DNA from: an uncultured Flavobacteriales bacterium
GTDB taxonomy: Bacteria > Bacteroidota > Bacteroidia > Flavobacteriales_D > CALLUQ01
Assembly: GCA_938010565.1 (NCBI GenBank)
Contig: CALLUQ010000065.1
Location: forward strand, 1 to 33,833
Direction of reading: 5' to 3'
Length of the DNA: 33,833 nt
Part shown: in pieces, positions 4,800 to 12,848 of the stretch
Numbering within the stretch: the stretch's first letter is position 1
Layout of the letters: each line of letters begins with the position of its first letter
Position numbers and translations under genes: made by a program
The notes under the pieces: generated by a model
Databases searched by the model: none
What the model was told of the DNA's origin: nothing
What the model saw: the letters and a program-made list of their open reading frames with translations, nothing else

Positions 4800-4929
4800 G
4801 GGCAAACGCATTTAAAGCATACCGCTCTCATTTTCAGCTATTTAAACTTTCGTCGTTGCTTAAATATCATACATTGAGAATCATACCTGCTTGATTTATA
4901 GAGGCGAGAAATTTAAATGCGTTTACCCC
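4800..4929. repeat. Spaced inverted repeat (GGGCAAACGCATTTAAA ... TTTAAATGCGTTTACCCC)
   Basis: 16 of 17 complementary positions flank about 95 bp just upstream of the VTC gene. Confidence 0.55.
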
Positions 4930-4958
4930 GGAGGATGAGCAAAGAACTTCATTGAGAA

Positions 4959-5756
4959 ATGGGAAAATATGTTAAATTTGGCGCTTCTAACTTCGGATTG
5001 ACAACAACAAAAGACATATTAAGTACTTTTAAACCCATCACACTGGAAGAGATGGATGCGGTGAAGTTGATGAACCGCACAGATACCAAGTTTGTTTTTC
5101 ACCGCGATCGTATCCCTGAGATATTTCATCGGATACAGGATCATTATCGGGTTCTTGAGGTTAACGGAGATCGCTTGAATGCTTACCGGAGTTTGTATTA
5201 TGATACACCGGAGTTTCAGTTCTATCATTTGCATCAGAACGGGAGGAAAAAGCGGCACAAGGTGCGGTTTAGGAAGTACGTGGGCTCCGATCTTACTTTT
5301 CTGGAAATAAAATTCAAAAACAACAAAAACCGAACGGTTAAAAGCCGGATCAAGGTACCCGATTTTGAAACCGACCTCCAGGCCAACAGCATGCAATACA
5401 TTGAGGAGGTTATGGGATACAAAACAGCATTGGTTCCCAAGCTCTGGAATAGCTTTGAGCGTGTAACGTTGGTGAGTAAACACAACCTTGAACGCCTTAC
5501 CATCGATTTTGGGCTCGCTTTTGATTTTGATGGTAAAAAGAGCAACATGGATCAAATCATAATTGCCGAGGTGAAACAAGAAAAGCTAAGTAGAAATTCT
5601 ACCTTCATTGTCGCGCTAAAAGCACTGGGCATACACCCGATGAAGATCAGCAAGTATTGCGTGGGTGCTTTGAAACTTTACCCGGGTTTGAAATACAATA
5701 ATTTTAAAGCAAAGCTGCTATATTTAAAAAAGATCAATGATGGAATTTCTGCTTGA
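4959..5756 (+). CDS. VTC-domain polyphosphate-polymerase-like protein
   Basis: Triphosphate-tunnel features TDTKFVF, YRSLYYDTP, KVRFRKY, FLEIKFK, IAEVKQ, KISKYCVG. The start codon is uncertain because a TAnnTTTG motif lies at 4973-4980. Confidence 0.85.
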   Translation: MGKYVKFGASNFGLTTTKDILSTFKPITLEEMDAVKLMNRTDTKFVFHRDRIPEIFHRIQDHYRVLEVNGDRLNAYRSLYYDTPEFQFYHLHQNGRKKRHKVRFRKYVGSDLTFLEIKFKNNKNRTVKSRIKVPDFETDLQANSMQYIEEVMGYKTALVPKLWNSFERVTLVSKHNLERLTIDFGLAFDFDGKKSNMDQIIIAEVKQEKLSRNSTFIVALKALGIHPMKISKYCVGALKLYPGLKYNNFKAKLLYLKKINDGISA

Positions 5757-6489
5757 TTTTATTTTTCCCTTTTTGGATGGTTTTGACCGGATATTGACTG
5801 CCTCCTCTGTCGGTAATACGGTTCATTTAGCTAACGAATCCAGGCTTATCGGGCTTCCGATACACGATGCCAGAGATTTCGGTAAGTTGTTCCAGCGTTT
5901 TCTCTTTAACCTTCTTATAACAGGCATTATTGCCGGTGCGATCTACTATCCGTCTGCCCGGCGCAGGGATTATCTGTTTACCTACATGATGATCAGCATC
6001 ACGGTATTTTTTCTTTGTTTTTTGCTTGAAAATGTAAAGCTGGAACTGGGCTTTGCTTTGGGGCTTTTTGCCATTTTTGGGATCATTCGTTACCGAACCG
6101 ACCCCATTCCCATTAAGGAAATGACCTATTTATTTGTCATTATCGGAGTGTCGGTGGTAAATGCTCTGGTGAATAAAAAGATCTCGTTTACCGAACTTTT
6201 ACTCACCAATGTGGCCATTATTGTGGCTACTGTAGCCCTGGAATACCTGAACTTGCTTCGCCACGAACTCCGTAAGAATATAGTTTACGAAAGGATCGAC
6301 CTGATCAAACCCGAAAAACGCGCCGAGTTGGCCCAGGATTTGGAAACCCGTACCGGGATCAAGATCAGCCGGATCGAAATTGGCCGCATCGATTTCCTTA
6401 GAGATGTCGCAAATATTCGGATCTATTACTACGAAAAAGACCAGGCTATTCCTGTTTCAGGCTACGAAGAAACGCGCTCCGAATCATAA
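5737..6489 (+). CDS. DUF4956 family membrane protein
   Basis: Four to five hydrophobic helices, LGFALGLFAIFGIIRYRTDPIPIKEMTYLFVIIGVSVVNAL. Overlaps the VTC gene by 20 nt. Confidence 0.85.
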   Translation: MMEFLLDFIFPFLDGFDRILTASSVGNTVHLANESRLIGLPIHDARDFGKLFQRFLFNLLITGIIAGAIYYPSARRRDYLFTYMMISITVFFLCFLLENVKLELGFALGLFAIFGIIRYRTDPIPIKEMTYLFVIIGVSVVNALVNKKISFTELLLTNVAIIVATVALEYLNLLRHELRKNIVYERIDLIKPEKRAELAQDLETRTGIKISRIEIGRIDFLRDVANIRIYYYEKDQAIPVSGYEETRSES

Positions 6490-6529
6490 AGCCCGTTCAA
6501 CCAAAATTGATTTTTATTTCCGGTAAGTC

Positions 6530-7009
6530 TCAGGTTTTGTAGATCAGGCAAACGGCTTGCGCACTAACGCCTTCTTCTCTGCCCTCAAAACCCAACCACT
6601 CGGTAGTGGTGGCCTTTACCGATATGGCTCCTTCTTCTACTTCCAGCACGTTGGCAATGATGCTTTGCATGGGTGCAATGTAGGGTTTGATCTTGGGCAC
6701 TTGTAAAGCCACGGTAGCATCTATGTTGCCGATCCGGTAGCCCGCTTGGGCTACTATGGCTCCTACTTCTTTCAGCAACAGTTTGCTGTCGGCTCCCTTA
6801 TAAATGGGGTTGGTATCCGGAAAATGGTATCCGATGTCGCGTTGCCCCGAGGCACCCAGCAAAGCATCGGAAATGGCGTGCAACAACACATCGGCATCCG
6901 AATGGCCAACCGTACCTTTTTCATGAGGTATCAAAAGCCCGCCTAACCAAAACTCTTCCCCTTCTGCCAGGCGATGAACATCGTAACCCAAACCTACTCT
7001 GAAACGCAT
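6530..7009 (-). CDS. ispF: 2-C-methyl-D-erythritol 2,4-cyclodiphosphate synthase
   Basis: GYDVHRL, GHSDADVLLHAISDALLGA, DIGYHFPDT, KATTTEWLGFEGREEG. Confidence 0.95.
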   Translation of the reverse strand: MRFRVGLGYDVHRLAEGEEFWLGGLLIPHEKGTVGHSDADVLLHAISDALLGASGQRDIGYHFPDTNPIYKGADSKLLLKEVGAIVAQAGYRIGNIDATVALQVPKIKPYIAPMQSIIANVLEVEEGAISVKATTTEWLGFEGREEGVSAQAVCLIYKT

Positions 7010-7014
7010 ACGGT

Positions 7015-8340
7015 TTACGAGTCTATGGCATCGCTGCCCAATGAATCAAAAGAAAAACGCAGGGTAAAACGCAAGGTGTTTGCCAATGGGTTGTTTTGTT
7101 GTGTTGGAACCAGGTAGGCAAAATCCAGGGTAAATTTGGAATAATGGAGCCCGGCACCAAGTGTGAAATACTTTCGGTTGCCTTTCGTGGCACTTTCGTG
7201 GAAATAGCCTGCTCTTAAGGCCAGCTGGTCGTTGTCGCCATAAAAATACTCTATCCCGGCACCTATATTGATCTCGCGCAACTCTTCTTTGAATTTGGAC
7301 CCTTTTTCTAGCTGAGCTGTTCCGTTGTCATTGTACAACCATTCGCCGCTCTCGTCGGTAGCGATGATCCCCGGAGCATCTGCAAAAGACTGAAAGATCC
7401 CTGTGGCTACCCCTACATCGGGATCGGAACCGGAAGCAATTACAAAACCGTTGGTTTGTGCACTGAAAATAGGATTCCCCAAAGAATCGCGTTCATAAAT
7501 GGGAGGTGTTGGTACCAGAAGTTTGTTGAAATCAACCGCAAAAGAAATTTTGTTGTAGGCATCCAACAGAACGGTCATGGAGGGCCCGAGGCGCAGATTG
7601 GTGGGAATAAAATCACGTTCCGATGAGCTGGTGTAAGCCATTTTGGCTCCCATGTTAGAGACATTCAGGCCAAAGGCAAAAATGCCGTCTTTATTACCCA
7701 GAGAGATCTCATCATTCCGGTAGAATGCAGAAATATCCGCTGCACCGGAAGTGCCGGCTTTAGAAGTATTTCCTGATACTACATAGCCTTGGGTGAGGTT
7801 GGAGTAAATAAACCGCCCGGCTATGGCCGCCGACCATCGATCAGTGAGTTTGCGGGCATAGCCGAAGTCAATGGCATATTCATTGGGTTTGGCACTTCCG
7901 ATCACATTTCCTGCTGCATCGGTAAAAGTAATTTCTCCGAGTGTGAAATAGCGCAGAGAAGCAGAAAAAGCCTGATTCTTATCTATCTGGAAATACCCGG
8001 AAAGATACGCCAGGTTGATATCTGGAACCAGTTGTCGCAACCAGGGAGTATAAGAAAGGGAAATGTCCATTTTCTTTTTGGCGAAAGCAATTTTAGAGAG
8101 GTTCCAATGCATGCTGTTGGCGTCGGGAGAAATGGAAACGCCTACATCGCCCATGGCTCCGCTGCGAGAGTCCGGGGCAATTGCGAGAAAAGGAACAGCA
8201 GTGGTAATGGTATTCAACTGTAAGGATGCGGAATTCCCATTATTCGCTTGAAAATTTTGTGCTTTGGTTGTAATACCCACACCAAGTGCAGCAGCCAGGC
8301 AAAGGCCCTGTGAAAAATTAAGCATCGGTTTGTAGTTCAT
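7015..8340 (-). CDS. porV: Type IX secretion outer-membrane protein PorV (LptO)
   Basis: FLAIAPDSRSGAMGDVGVSISPDANSMHWNLSKIAF; outer-membrane beta-barrel C-terminus; directly downstream of porU. Confidence 0.9.
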   Translation of the reverse strand: MNYKPMLNFSQGLCLAAALGVGITTKAQNFQANNGNSASLQLNTITTAVPFLAIAPDSRSGAMGDVGVSISPDANSMHWNLSKIAFAKKKMDISLSYTPWLRQLVPDINLAYLSGYFQIDKNQAFSASLRYFTLGEITFTDAAGNVIGSAKPNEYAIDFGYARKLTDRWSAAIAGRFIYSNLTQGYVVSGNTSKAGTSGAADISAFYRNDEISLGNKDGIFAFGLNVSNMGAKMAYTSSSERDFIPTNLRLGPSMTVLLDAYNKISFAVDFNKLLVPTPPIYERDSLGNPIFSAQTNGFVIASGSDPDVGVATGIFQSFADAPGIIATDESGEWLYNDNGTAQLEKGSKFKEELREINIGAGIEYFYGDNDQLALRAGYFHESATKGNRKYFTLGAGLHYSKFTLDFAYLVPTQQNNPLANTLRFTLRFSFDSLGSDAIDS

Positions 8341-8397
8341 GAATATAAAAAGACAGTTGACAAGTATACGGAGTTTGGGGTAGTTTTATTGTATATG

Positions 8398-11300
8398 TTA
8401 CTTGAGAATCACAAGTTTTTCAAACTCCTCGGCTTTACTGCCGTCTTCTGCCAGCACTTTAACGCGGTACACATATACCCCACGGCCCAGGTTGTCACCA
8501 AATTCGTCCCGGCCATCCCAGGCAATGGGGCTTACTTTAAACCCATCTGTTCTGATGGTTTGATGAATGGATTTCACCACTTTGCCCGAAACGGTAAAAA
8601 CATCGATCTCCACATCCAAAAATTCACAAACCTGGTTGTGTTCAAAATAAAAGGCAGTATTCGTGGTAAAAGGATTCGGGTAATTCAAAACATGGGCAAG
8701 GGTGAGGTTTTCGGAATCTTTTACCACAAAGTCGATGCTGGCTTCCGAAGAGTTGTTGTACACATCCCAAACCTTGATTTTCAGGTTGTGGTTGCCTTCG
8801 CTCAACGAACCGAATTTATAACGTATCTGACCACTCTGGTAGCTATCGAGGTCGGATTCGTAAAACTCGTTCAGCACAATAGACCGATCGGTTTTTCCAT
8901 CCAGTATTGCGATAATATCGTGGCCAATTCCATTGCCAAGCATATTGATCCCGTTTTGGTCAAATACTTTTGCAAAAAGGGTGGGGGTTTCATTGGTGAT
9001 GCCGCCATCCGTAAAGTTTTCGTTGTTCATGTACAACTCGATATCCGGTCCTTGTTGGTCATCTTTTATGGTATCGGCAGAGCCTCCTACAATGAACTGT
9101 GAATTGTAGCCATGTGCATCGGATACGGCATTTTCGGCATAATAACTGATTCGCCCGGGGCCAAATTGATAGGAGATGTCTTTCGGTACCATGAAAGTAA
9201 AACTGAAATCGCCCTTCACTACCGAAACTTTTCCTTTGTAGATCACATTTTTGAACATGTTGAAATTCATTTCGCCGGATCCTGAATTTTGGCCCAATGT
9301 TGTCAATGTTGAAGGTTTGTCGTGAACAGTGGGATAAAGTACGCCATTAAATCCGTTCATTTTATCCCCGTTTTTATCGGCAATAAAACCTTGCACCGTA
9401 ACGGATGAAAGGGCTTTCAGGGTATCTTGAACCGCACCAACCGCCTGGCCGTTGATCGTAGTGGTTACCACATCGTACCAGGGGTACGCCAGCTGCGTGG
9501 CCGGATCGCCAAGAAGGCTGAAATTTCGCCTGTTGCTTCCGGTTGAAGCCACACCGATCTTGGTTAACCGGTTGATATCTCCCAGGCGCTGTCGGGTACC
9601 GCCGGGTTCCAGAAAACAATATTCGTAAAACTTGTTATTAAGGGCAAAGTTAGGCGAGGAAAATACCAGGCGGGTAGTGGTCATAAGGGCGATCGCTCCT
9701 CCGTCTTTATTGAGCAAAACATATTCTCCGGCAGCGGTTCTGCCGGGATCATCAAAACGGCTGAACTCACAAGTTGCCGTAAGAAACAAAGGCAGGCTCC
9801 GAATGTTGGACCAGTTTTGTATAACGGGCACACTCAAAATGCGTTCATGAGCCCAGCCTACTTCGCCGCCATGGCCAATATAATTTAGAATGAGTACGCC
9901 TTGTTCCACTCGTTTGTTGAGCAATTCGGCCACTTGCGGGTAGCGCTCTCCGCCCGGAGTTGCTTCTTGTTTATAGGCATCGAGATACATTTTCTCGATC
10001 AGAAATTCAGGATTGGTTGAAGTGATATCCTGGCTGTGTGCTTCCGCATCTCCCACATGGGTATTGTTGTCTTCATCATCGGCCACAATGGTAACCCGGT
10101 TCCGCCAGTCGCCAAAGGCGGTCAGGCTTTCACTGGCATCGCAAACGGTTCCGTCCGGATTTAGGGTAGTTCCGGTTCGATCGTAACCCATAATTTTATC
10201 CACTACGCCTTGTGCGTCTTCTGCTTTGCTCACCGGCAAACGACCTATTCCAATGTCTAGCAAATCGACGGTTGAAGCCGATTCTGTCGGATCTAAAAAT
10301 CCGAAATAATCGTCCGACACATAGGAAAAGAGTACCGACCAGGAATTAGGAGACTGATAGGTAGGAATAAATGCGGTATTTCCGAAAATGCGGTTTTTAT
10401 TATCATAGCTGCCATCTCCTACCAAAAGCAGGTATTTCGGAAGCTGGGCAGGATCGGTGCCGGCACGGTTATACAGCATGCGCATCAGATCCTTTATGGC
10501 GGTGATGTCGGCCATACCGCTGGAAAATTCGTTGTACACCTGATCTGTGGTAACCACTTCGACGGCATGGCCCTGATTTCTCCGGTGTACGGCCAATGCG
10601 TTGGTGGCTGCCAAAAAAGCGGGATGTGTTACCATTACATAATCTACCCCATGAAAGGCATGTAAATTCTGGTTGGCCACCACCCCTGAAAAAACAGGCT
10701 GGCGGTAGCTCGCTGCGGTAAAGGCAAAAAATTCGCGAAGACTGTCGGACTCCAGGCGAAAAGTTTTAGCATTGCCGTTATCGGTGGTTACCATGCGATG
10801 CACATCGGTAGGATCGGTGATTTCCCAAACCTCCAGAACGGAAGAAGCATCGGAAATGGTGTATTCGGCTACTTCTCCGATACCGATGCTGTTGATATCA
10901 CGAAACGTAACATCGGTTTGGTCGGCAAAACGCAAGTTGCGGCGTGCCAGTACTTCGATGTAGTTGAGCCAGCCTACGGAAGTACCCGAATGGTACTGGA
11001 ACGTTAAACCTACATTTATCACATTGCTGTTGGGTAGGAACGTATGCACCAGGCTTCCGGGCCTGGCCGCATCGGCAGTATATCCTGTTCCTACGCCGGA
11101 AATGGAAAGGCTTGCCGTGGCAGGTGTTCCGTTCACATTCAGATCAAAACTACTGGAAAGGGAAGATCCTATGGTTTTTGCCGCAAGGTTCGTTTTCACC
11201 GTTACGGTACTAGTTTGATCGAGTTCGGGAAATATGAAATTAAAACTGTGACGATCCGTTAGGTTGGAAAATTCTTCTCCAAACCACACCCGCCCCGATT

Positions 11301-12342
11301 TGATCAAATTGCGGGAGTCGATCTCGTGGTACCGGTAGTCATCAAAAGTGGTCACACTCCGGGTAGCAGGTGCCTGGGCAGATGTTCGGTTGGTGATGCG
11401 CCCGGGCGCATCGCCGGTACCCAATCCTACAAACAGAAAAGCGGTATCAGAGTACAAATGGGTTTGGTGTTCAAACCGCCCTACTCCATTGTTGTAAATC
11501 CATTTATCAGGCCCTTTGGCGTAAAAAAGAAGGTAATCGCCCTGGTCCAGGGTCCCGTCTCCGCCATCCACTACTTGTATGCGGTTTTTTTTTAGATCAT
11601 CGGGGCGGTAAGCCGCATTCGATTCGGGCAACATTCCAAAATGGTTGCCATATATGTTAATATCGTCGGAAGCATATTGGGTAAGATCGATTCCCATTGC
11701 GGTTAAAAAATCGTGATCAAGGCGGTAGATTCCATCCTTTGTGATGCCTATTTTATAAAAAGTACCCTGCGCTAAAACGGAATTTGTAATGCTTTTGGCA
11801 ACGGCATGTGGTGTATAGTTCCGGGCAGTGGGCCGGATGTCGTAATCGAATCCTACCAGCTTTTCGATCTGTCCGTTCGACGGATTTCTGCGCAACGGTA
11901 CAAAAGACAACAAGGCAAAGCTCCGCTTTTGGTGTTGCGATACGACCAACCGAGGTGAAATTTGTTCTGGCAAAGAGGAGACGGCATGCAGTACCGCCTG
12001 CTCTTCTGTGTTGAGCACCTCAAATCGCATATCTTTCAGAATTACTTCTGCTTCGCTTACTTTGGCTCCCATTTTTTGGGTAATGCCCCAAACCGGCCAA
12101 TGGTTGCGTGCCGGATCATTGATCGCATCGGTACAAGTTAAAAACCGAAGGGTCAGATCTTCGGTCAGCTGATGCTTACCGATATCCCATTGTAATGTTT
12201 TTCCGGAAGCCGGAAAAGCGGAAGTTTTGTTTCGGCCCGTTTGTGCCTGACCTTGTGTCTGACCTTGTGCCTGACACGGAGAGATCCATAAAAACACAAA
12301 GCAAAGTATAGGAAAAAGTTTTCCTGAAGTTTCTTTTAACAT
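8398..12342 (-). CDS. porU: Type IX secretion sortase PorU (C25 peptidase)
   Basis: C25 catalytic motifs NYIGHGGEVGWAHE and FLTATCEFSRFDDP; C-terminal NYPNPF...GVYVYRVKV. Start set at MLKETSGKLFPILCFVFLWISPCQAQ (signal peptide), not the ORF-track start. Confidence 0.92.
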   Translation of the reverse strand: MLKETSGKLFPILCFVFLWISPCQAQGQTQGQAQTGRNKTSAFPASGKTLQWDIGKHQLTEDLTLRFLTCTDAINDPARNHWPVWGITQKMGAKVSEAEVILKDMRFEVLNTEEQAVLHAVSSLPEQISPRLVVSQHQKRSFALLSFVPLRRNPSNGQIEKLVGFDYDIRPTARNYTPHAVAKSITNSVLAQGTFYKIGITKDGIYRLDHDFLTAMGIDLTQYASDDINIYGNHFGMLPESNAAYRPDDLKKNRIQVVDGGDGTLDQGDYLLFYAKGPDKWIYNNGVGRFEHQTHLYSDTAFLFVGLGTGDAPGRITNRTSAQAPATRSVTTFDDYRYHEIDSRNLIKSGRVWFGEEFSNLTDRHSFNFIFPELDQTSTVTVKTNLAAKTIGSSLSSSFDLNVNGTPATASLSISGVGTGYTADAARPGSLVHTFLPNSNVINVGLTFQYHSGTSVGWLNYIEVLARRNLRFADQTDVTFRDINSIGIGEVAEYTISDASSVLEVWEITDPTDVHRMVTTDNGNAKTFRLESDSLREFFAFTAASYRQPVFSGVVANQNLHAFHGVDYVMVTHPAFLAATNALAVHRRNQGHAVEVVTTDQVYNEFSSGMADITAIKDLMRMLYNRAGTDPAQLPKYLLLVGDGSYDNKNRIFGNTAFIPTYQSPNSWSVLFSYVSDDYFGFLDPTESASTVDLLDIGIGRLPVSKAEDAQGVVDKIMGYDRTGTTLNPDGTVCDASESLTAFGDWRNRVTIVADDEDNNTHVGDAEAHSQDITSTNPEFLIEKMYLDAYKQEATPGGERYPQVAELLNKRVEQGVLILNYIGHGGEVGWAHERILSVPVIQNWSNIRSLPLFLTATCEFSRFDDPGRTAAGEYVLLNKDGGAIALMTTTRLVFSSPNFALNNKFYEYCFLEPGGTRQRLGDINRLTKIGVASTGSNRRNFSLLGDPATQLAYPWYDVVTTTINGQAVGAVQDTLKALSSVTVQGFIADKNGDKMNGFNGVLYPTVHDKPSTLTTLGQNSGSGEMNFNMFKNVIYKGKVSVVKGDFSFTFMVPKDISYQFGPGRISYYAENAVSDAHGYNSQFIVGGSADTIKDDQQGPDIELYMNNENFTDGGITNETPTLFAKVFDQNGINMLGNGIGHDIIAILDGKTDRSIVLNEFYESDLDSYQSGQIRYKFGSLSEGNHNLKIKVWDVYNNSSEASIDFVVKDSENLTLAHVLNYPNPFTTNTAFYFEHNQVCEFLDVEIDVFTVSGKVVKSIHQTIRTDGFKVSPIAWDGRDEFGDNLGRGVYVYRVKVLAEDGSKAEEFEKLVILK

Positions 12343-12848
12343 ACCTGGTTTATCGGTTCTGGATCCGTACGTATTGCGCTGTATGCAGTACGGTGTATTA
12401 TTCGTGCTGTTTATGAACGACAATGCTTTGGTATTATTGTATGGTCCGGTTGGGTGTTTGAAGCCTTTTGAAAAGTTTTTCGTACTATTGACCTTGCAAA
12501 TCCGGACCTGTAGTTCTTGGCATGCAAAGATACGCAACATTCACTTCAGATATAAAATCCTGTATCTCGGTTTTTCAAACCGGCGGATGGAAATTCGGAT
12601 GCAACTACGAGGTAACAAATGTTAAGCCGGCCAATGTTTCTGCCAGGCTCCAGGCGTTTTTTTGTACCTTGCCAGTGCCTTGTCAACAGAAGCATTTTCG
12701 GTTTCACACAATAAGTTGTTTTTCATTTTAGTTTTATGATTTATAGTGTAGCGAATTTAAATAGCTGTATTATTGCGAAGAATTGGAAGGTAGAACCGCC
12801 TTTTAATAAAAAACGGGAAGACGAAAAAAATTAGCCATTAATCATAAT

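Follow-up and report, generated by a model that had tools for sequence, protein, structure and literature searches.

A conserved pair of VTC-type tunnel protein and DUF4956 membrane protein in Bacteroidota, possibly the core of a polyphosphate-exporting envelope unit

Introduction

Bacterial polyphosphate (polyP) is usually ascribed to PPK enzymes and is regarded as intracellular. CotH proteins form a kinase family that acts outside the cell. In the VTC complex of yeast and other eukaryotes, a cytosolic catalytic domain with a triphosphate tunnel is tied to a membrane partner, and the dead Vtc4 mutant R264A/R266A/E426N lies behind the cryo-EM structure of the complex (PMC9911596). The same tunnel fold occurs in TTM tripolyphosphatases of the CYTH type (AtTTM3 and E. 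coli ygiF), where four glutamates occupy positions at which Vtc4 has basic residues that guide the chain away (PMC4641920).

Among bacteria, an association of CotH, PPP and DUF4956 has been published for Gram-positive Pel loci (PMC7112168), and the same three families are clustered as accessory genes, labelled PPP and DUF4956, at SIR_1592-1594 of Streptococcus intermedius (PMC12345266). In the passages considered here, the SIR_1593 mutant, which affects the polyP polymerase domain, retained aggregation and Pel with no change reported, polyP being outside the read-outs; Pel was increased in the mutant lacking the DUF4956-like gene, and was reduced, but not abolished, by the loss of CotH. In NELoc-2 of Clostridium perfringens (PMC2879425), each VTC-domain gene is followed by a membrane-marked gene of 222-226 aa with CotH nearby, as in the arrangements described below, but the membrane gene is annotated as a tubulin/FtsZ GTPase; judging from size and place, these 'tubulin/FtsZ' membrane genes of CP4_0460-0465 may be misannotated DUF4956 genes. 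Apart from the Pel papers, the open-access literature yielded no experimental work on VTC or DUF4956 of bacteria, and no functional study of DUF4956 in that literature, outside which most subscription journals lie. The CotH-VTC-DUF4956 grouping is known from Gram-positive Pel loci; the Bacteroidota arrangements of the pair reported here did not turn up in the literature searched.

Results and Discussion

The gene pair and its surroundings

The window, that is, the whole stretch of 33,833 nt analysed, comes from an uncultured Flavobacteriales bacterium with a genome of 211 contigs and 3.0 Mb, and carries the features collected in Table 1. ORF coordinates and Pfam matches established two + strand reading frames overlapping by 20 nt, as had been predicted from the sequence. 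Overlaps of about 20 nt are frequent in the family, the distance between VTC and DUF4956 ranging from -88 to +47 nt among 74 relatives, and the arrangement is likely to provide translational coupling of the two genes. Searches near the pair gave neither an RNA family nor promoter or terminator signals that clearly exceeded those of shuffled sequences. Because ispF shuts the module at its 3' end, no DUF2490 or CotH gene follows the pair, and the whole window gave no match to DUF2490, CotH or MFP; elsewhere in the host genome, one DUF2490 match and six CotH matches were obtained. The presence of porV and the likely porU in the window means that type IX secretion genes adjoin the pair in this host. 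Together with the named relatives of the pair, porV assigns the host to Bacteroidota.

Table 1. Features of the window and core tunnel residues of its VTC protein
Feature	Position	Strand	Remarks
VTC-domain (triphosphate tunnel) protein	4959..5756	+	265 aa; Pfam PF09359, E 3.4e-30
DUF4956 membrane protein	5737..6489	+	250 aa; Pfam PF16316, E 2e-54
Reading-frame overlap, 20 nt	5737..5756	+	ORF coordinates
ispF (YgbB family)	6530..7009	-	PF02542, E 7e-65; convergent, 40 nt past the pair; outside the module
porV	7015-8340	-	PF19572, E 8e-71
1380-aa ORF	8398-12540	-	likely porU, from place and size
5' side of the pair: panD, lysylphosphatidylglycerol-synthase-like membrane protein, nucleotidyltransferase, RadA/KaiC-like ATPase		-	all on the - strand
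Core tunnel residues, window VTC protein	R40, D42, K44, K101, R103, K118, K128, R130, R168, R179, E204, K206, K232		

Similar surroundings were seen in two other records. In locus L041, the - strand genes after the pair match porV and the 1380-aa ORF of the window in order and size. In locus L106 (4080-8358), a contig with the title 'Euryarchaeota archaeon', the pair is again present, and the - strand genes after it are sized and ordered like ispF-porV; this is probably a misassigned Bacteroidota bin.

The VTC protein and its tunnel residues

All six motifs on which the original prediction relied (TDTKF, YRSLYYDT, KVRFRKY, LEIKFK, AEVKQ and KISKY) were found in the translation of the VTC gene, and the predicted lack of a membrane segment was borne out, as the top 19-residue Kyte-Doolittle mean was 0.97 and no hydrophobic stretch was present. 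The protein is basic (computed pI 9.8), and its match to PF09359, far beyond the cut-off, covers profile positions 1-234 of 235. Unlike its eukaryotic counterpart, it has neither an SPX domain nor any other Pfam domain. A predicted model (pLDDT 92, pTM 0.88) was compared with the PDB using Foldseek, and the 13 best folds (ranks 1-13) were all Vtc4, Vtc2 or Vtc3, with Vtc4 as the best match. The single VTC sequence reached yeast Vtc4 only at E 0.24 in a PDB search, so that a profile search was needed; a profile of 23 bacterial homologues aligned with the entire tunnel domain of yeast Vtc4 at E 4e-23.

In this profile alignment, the tunnel residues of Vtc4 correspond to those of the window protein as follows: R196=R40, T198=D42, K200=K44, R264=K101, R266=R103, K281=K118, K294=K128, R296=R130, R361=R168, R373=R179, E426=E204, K428=K206, K455=K229 and K458=K232. 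We assessed conservation among 17 type A proteins and among 23 homologues of mixed types A and B (the two types are described below). The sole position without conservation was K455. Each of the others holds in at least 15 of the 17 type A proteins and in nearly all of the 23 mixed homologues, the exceptions per position numbering no more than one to three; that of R373 is R or K among the 17 type A proteins. Equivalents of the catalytic and metal-binding residues R264, R266, E426 and K458 are present (K101, R103, E204 and K232) and conserved family-wide. Thus, nearly all catalytic and substrate residues are shared with the yeast complex, whereas the bacterial family differs from Vtc4 at K455 and at T198: the aligned bacterial proteins always carry Asp or Glu at T198, and Lys at R264. 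The T198 position is the site of a second-metal ligand in tripolyphosphatases.

The acidic patch of AtTTM3 was then compared with the window protein. Basic residues, like those of Vtc4, stand in for E2 and E171, and also for E90, for which the match is inferred; the residues concerned are R40, K128/R130 and K206, and D42, the equivalent of E4, is acidic. Since three of the four positions are basic as in Vtc4, a site of the polymerase type is likely. The triphosphate-tunnel pattern originally proposed is upheld by profile, fold and conservation as a tunnel of the Vtc4 type whose basic residues are probably those of a polymerase. Judged by sequence, the window protein probably has a polymerase-like site with one difference, the acidic D42, and is likely to be a cytoplasmic enzyme of the polyP-polymerase type.

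The acidic residue at T198 indicates that the chemistry of bacterial VTC proteins may differ from that of Vtc4. The enzyme could use another triphosphate substrate or another phosphate acceptor and hand a non-polyP product to DUF4956, for use with CotH in surface modification. The diversity of activities among triphosphate tunnel enzymes (PMC4641920), the invariable Asp/Glu and Lys at the two positions and the PPK1 already present in most VTC genomes would all fit such an enzyme. We nevertheless consider it unlikely, because the nearest solved relatives by both fold and profile are VTC subunits throughout, three of the four acidic-patch positions carry basic residues like the polymerase, and both E426 and K458 have been retained.

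PPK1 was found in the host and in nearly all VTC genomes; among the PPK1-less genomes listed (eight more are unlisted), VTC occurred only in G134 and G078. On the strength of these genomes, we reject a role of VTC as a substitute for PPK1, and given the PPK1 of the host, VTC is probably not its bulk polyP maker.

The DUF4956 protein

The match of the 3' gene product to PF16316 is complete (positions 1-169 of 169), with an E value far beyond the cut-off. Its predicted model (pLDDT 80) contains helices at residues 45-74, 78-100, 104-121, 126-143 and 151-170, that is, five helices of membrane length past residue 44, in agreement with the multi-TM protein expected, followed by a small C-terminal alpha/beta domain (residues 177-232). 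Residues Y70, R118, R120, T121 and M129 are invariant in 17 DUF4956 homologues, and 16 of the 17 have a basic residue at position 54, within the first membrane helix. By the positive-inside rule, the R118-x-R120-T121 loop would face the cytosol.

The PDB fold search with this model returned no solved structure at E < 0.001 and no resemblance to a known channel, and no Pfam family besides its own exceeded the cut-off for the window protein or the 17 homologues. Kinship with Vtc1 is therefore unsupported, and the membrane partner differs in this respect from that of the eukaryotic complex. Membership of the MgtC family, proposed for SIR_1592 of S. intermedius (PMC12345266), was likewise unsupported: MgtC was absent among the 25 families listed for the 17 homologues at E values up to 10 and among those listed for the window protein, although a distant kinship may exist.

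Co-occurrence of VTC and DUF4956

We searched 297 Bacteroidota genomes and 14 control genomes for both families. Among the Bacteroidota, VTC was detected in 48 genomes (37 genera) and DUF4956 in 74, and all 48 VTC genomes also contained DUF4956 (p 9e-37). The association persisted when counted by genus (DUF4956 in 37/37 VTC-bearing genera versus 47/141, p 4e-25). Moreover, 54 of the 55 VTC places lie beside a DUF4956 gene on the same strand, which is directly downstream in 51 and about 4 kb upstream in 3; the single exception is a short fragment. Seen from the DUF4956 side, VTC is just upstream in 74 of 80 named loci, among them L155 and L179, whose record titles name Fibrobacterales and Neomarinimicrobiota; of the remaining six loci, two have DUF4956 <200 nt from the contig start. 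Both families were found in the same three control genomes, namely those of Bacteroides ihuae, Corynebacterium glutamicum and Methanosarcina acetivorans, representing two bacterial phyla and one archaeon. The genome survey that the original prediction had proposed as a check thus yielded a near-absolute co-occurrence, and since the pairing holds at 54/55 places while the flanking genes vary between genera, chance adjacency is ruled out.

Envelope genes accompanying the pair

The relatives fall into two subtypes, and the window pair belongs to type A. DUF2490, a predicted outer-membrane barrel, was seen with type A only (14/18 surveyed loci and 48/80 named loci), mostly directly downstream and always on the same strand (62/62). 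An HlyD-type adaptor (MFP) gene was seen with type B only, in 22/25 loci, again on the same strand throughout (23/23). In a Pfam scan of 132 neighbours of type A pairs, DUF2490 ranked first, a general outer-membrane barrel family second and CotH third, and no Pel family appeared among the common neighbours. CotH was present in the surveyed stretch at 25/43 loci, compared with ~1% expected per locus, and in 47/48 VTC genomes, compared with 107/297 overall. In L179, genes for VTC, DUF4956, DUF2490 and CotH are consecutive within 3.6 kb. The statement in PMC12345266 that synteny is absent outside Pel loci does not hold for VTC, DUF4956 and CotH in Bacteroidota, where our survey shows the three side by side in the absence of Pel genes.

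Membership of a Pel locus is rejected for the window pair, whose neighbours include panD, the lysylphosphatidylglycerol-synthase-like protein, ispF and porV and whose relatives show no Pel family among their common neighbours; in contrast to the Gram-positive cassette, the Bacteroidota pair goes with DUF2490 or HlyD-type genes. With most relatives adding a DUF2490 barrel or an HlyD adaptor, and often CotH, it is also doubtful that the two genes constitute a 'minimal' system, as had been suggested. The envelope neighbours might still be unrelated passengers, with DUF4956 merely a scaffold that anchors VTC at the membrane while polyP stays inside the cell. The VTC protein does lack a membrane part of its own, and in the window no gene for an envelope partner adjoins the pair. 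Such a scaffold is improbable, however, in view of the consistent strand and mostly direct adjacency of the partner genes, and because DUF4956 genes without VTC retain the same kinds of partner.

Conservation of the pair across Bacteroidota near outer-envelope and secreted-kinase genes suggests that a phosphate polymer is made and moved out. We tentatively favour, with somewhat less than even confidence, the possibility that the two proteins form the core, in cytoplasm and inner membrane, of an envelope unit that would make polyP in the cytoplasm and also export it. The original reading of a polyP synthase-translocase therefore stands in part: the Vtc4-type tunnel and the near-absolute co-occurrence support it, whereas the lack of detectable Vtc1 kinship and the existence of DUF4956 genes without VTC speak against the membrane half as first conceived. 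An exporting unit is also disfavoured by the S. intermedius mutants described above (PMC12345266), by the absence of any likeness of DUF4956 to a known channel and by the missing DUF2490, MFP and CotH neighbours in the window. We infer the course of events, from catalysis and contact between the two proteins to transport and the identity and use of the polymer, as follows. The soluble VTC protein, held at the membrane by DUF4956, would take up ATP with Mn/Mg in the basic tunnel, where phosphates would be joined into polyP. The conserved, arginine-rich cytosolic mouth of DUF4956 would receive the chain, or a short product, and pass it across the inner membrane. In the relatives, a DUF2490 outer-membrane barrel or an HlyD/TolC-type adaptor might carry the chain onward or provide an anchor for it, on the same outer side as that on which secreted CotH kinases would act.

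DUF4956 without VTC

In the 297 Bacteroidota genomes, 28 DUF4956 places lack VTC, and 26 of the 74 DUF4956 genomes have no VTC. Several of the places inspected precede two genes, one for an HlyD-type adaptor and one for an outer-membrane protein resembling TolC, and others adjoin CotH. In L065-L068, L070 and L079, a DUF4956 gene without VTC near 8.0-8.9 kb is followed by the HlyD-type adaptor and TolC-like genes, which indicates a transport role for DUF4956; the three genes possibly encode a three-part export unit with DUF4956 as its inner-membrane part. The host itself has a second, more divergent DUF4956 gene without VTC (L072, contig C46 of G000, 4881-8402, - strand), which remained under the Pfam cut-off in both searches; a CotH gene (E 1e-43) comes ~10 nt after it, followed by an O-antigen ligase gene. 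Occurring without VTC beside export genes of the HlyD/TolC type or CotH, DUF4956 appears to be a more general envelope component, and it looks like a shared hub of which VTC is one client.

These places also bear on a regulatory explanation, in which the pair would control envelope work in response to phosphate or polyP: VTC would make or sense a polyphosphate signal, and the C-terminal domain of DUF4956, taken as ACT/ferredoxin-like, would gate a surface system (polysaccharide or CotH-dependent phosphorylation). Aspartate kinase ACT domains are among the weak structural neighbours of this domain, none of which is significant; the opposite changes in Pel upon loss of the DUF4956-like gene and of CotH in S. 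intermedius (PMC12345266) would agree with a regulator, as would the CotH genes beside DUF4956 without VTC, in the host next to an O-antigen ligase. We regard this explanation as rather unlikely, since polysaccharide genes are absent among the common neighbours of type A pairs, mere sensing would not need the basic residues of a polymerase, and the repeated presence of HlyD, TolC-like and barrel partners speaks for transport.

Returning to an exporting envelope unit, a far more specific form of it seems a long shot, namely that polyP, or an energised phosphate product, leaves through DUF4956 and then through HlyD/TolC partners or a DUF2490 barrel, and serves secreted CotH kinases in the periplasm or at the surface as phosphate donor or polymer matrix. 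Such a bacterial machine for polyP export would account for the high-energy phosphate used by extracellular kinases. If export is correct, a VTC-type polymerase, a membrane protein and envelope partners would form a second, outward polyP route beside PPK1. The widespread DUF4956 family would then gain a testable role and a tie to CotH.

A separate observation concerns the 5' side of the relatives. Small genes for secreted proteins or lipoproteins (~130-140 aa) directly precede VTC, with the same orientation, in L054, L100-L102, L105, L115, L118, L130, L133 and about 20 more loci, and apparently comprise two sorts, one CarboxypepD_reg-like and the other of a repeat type.
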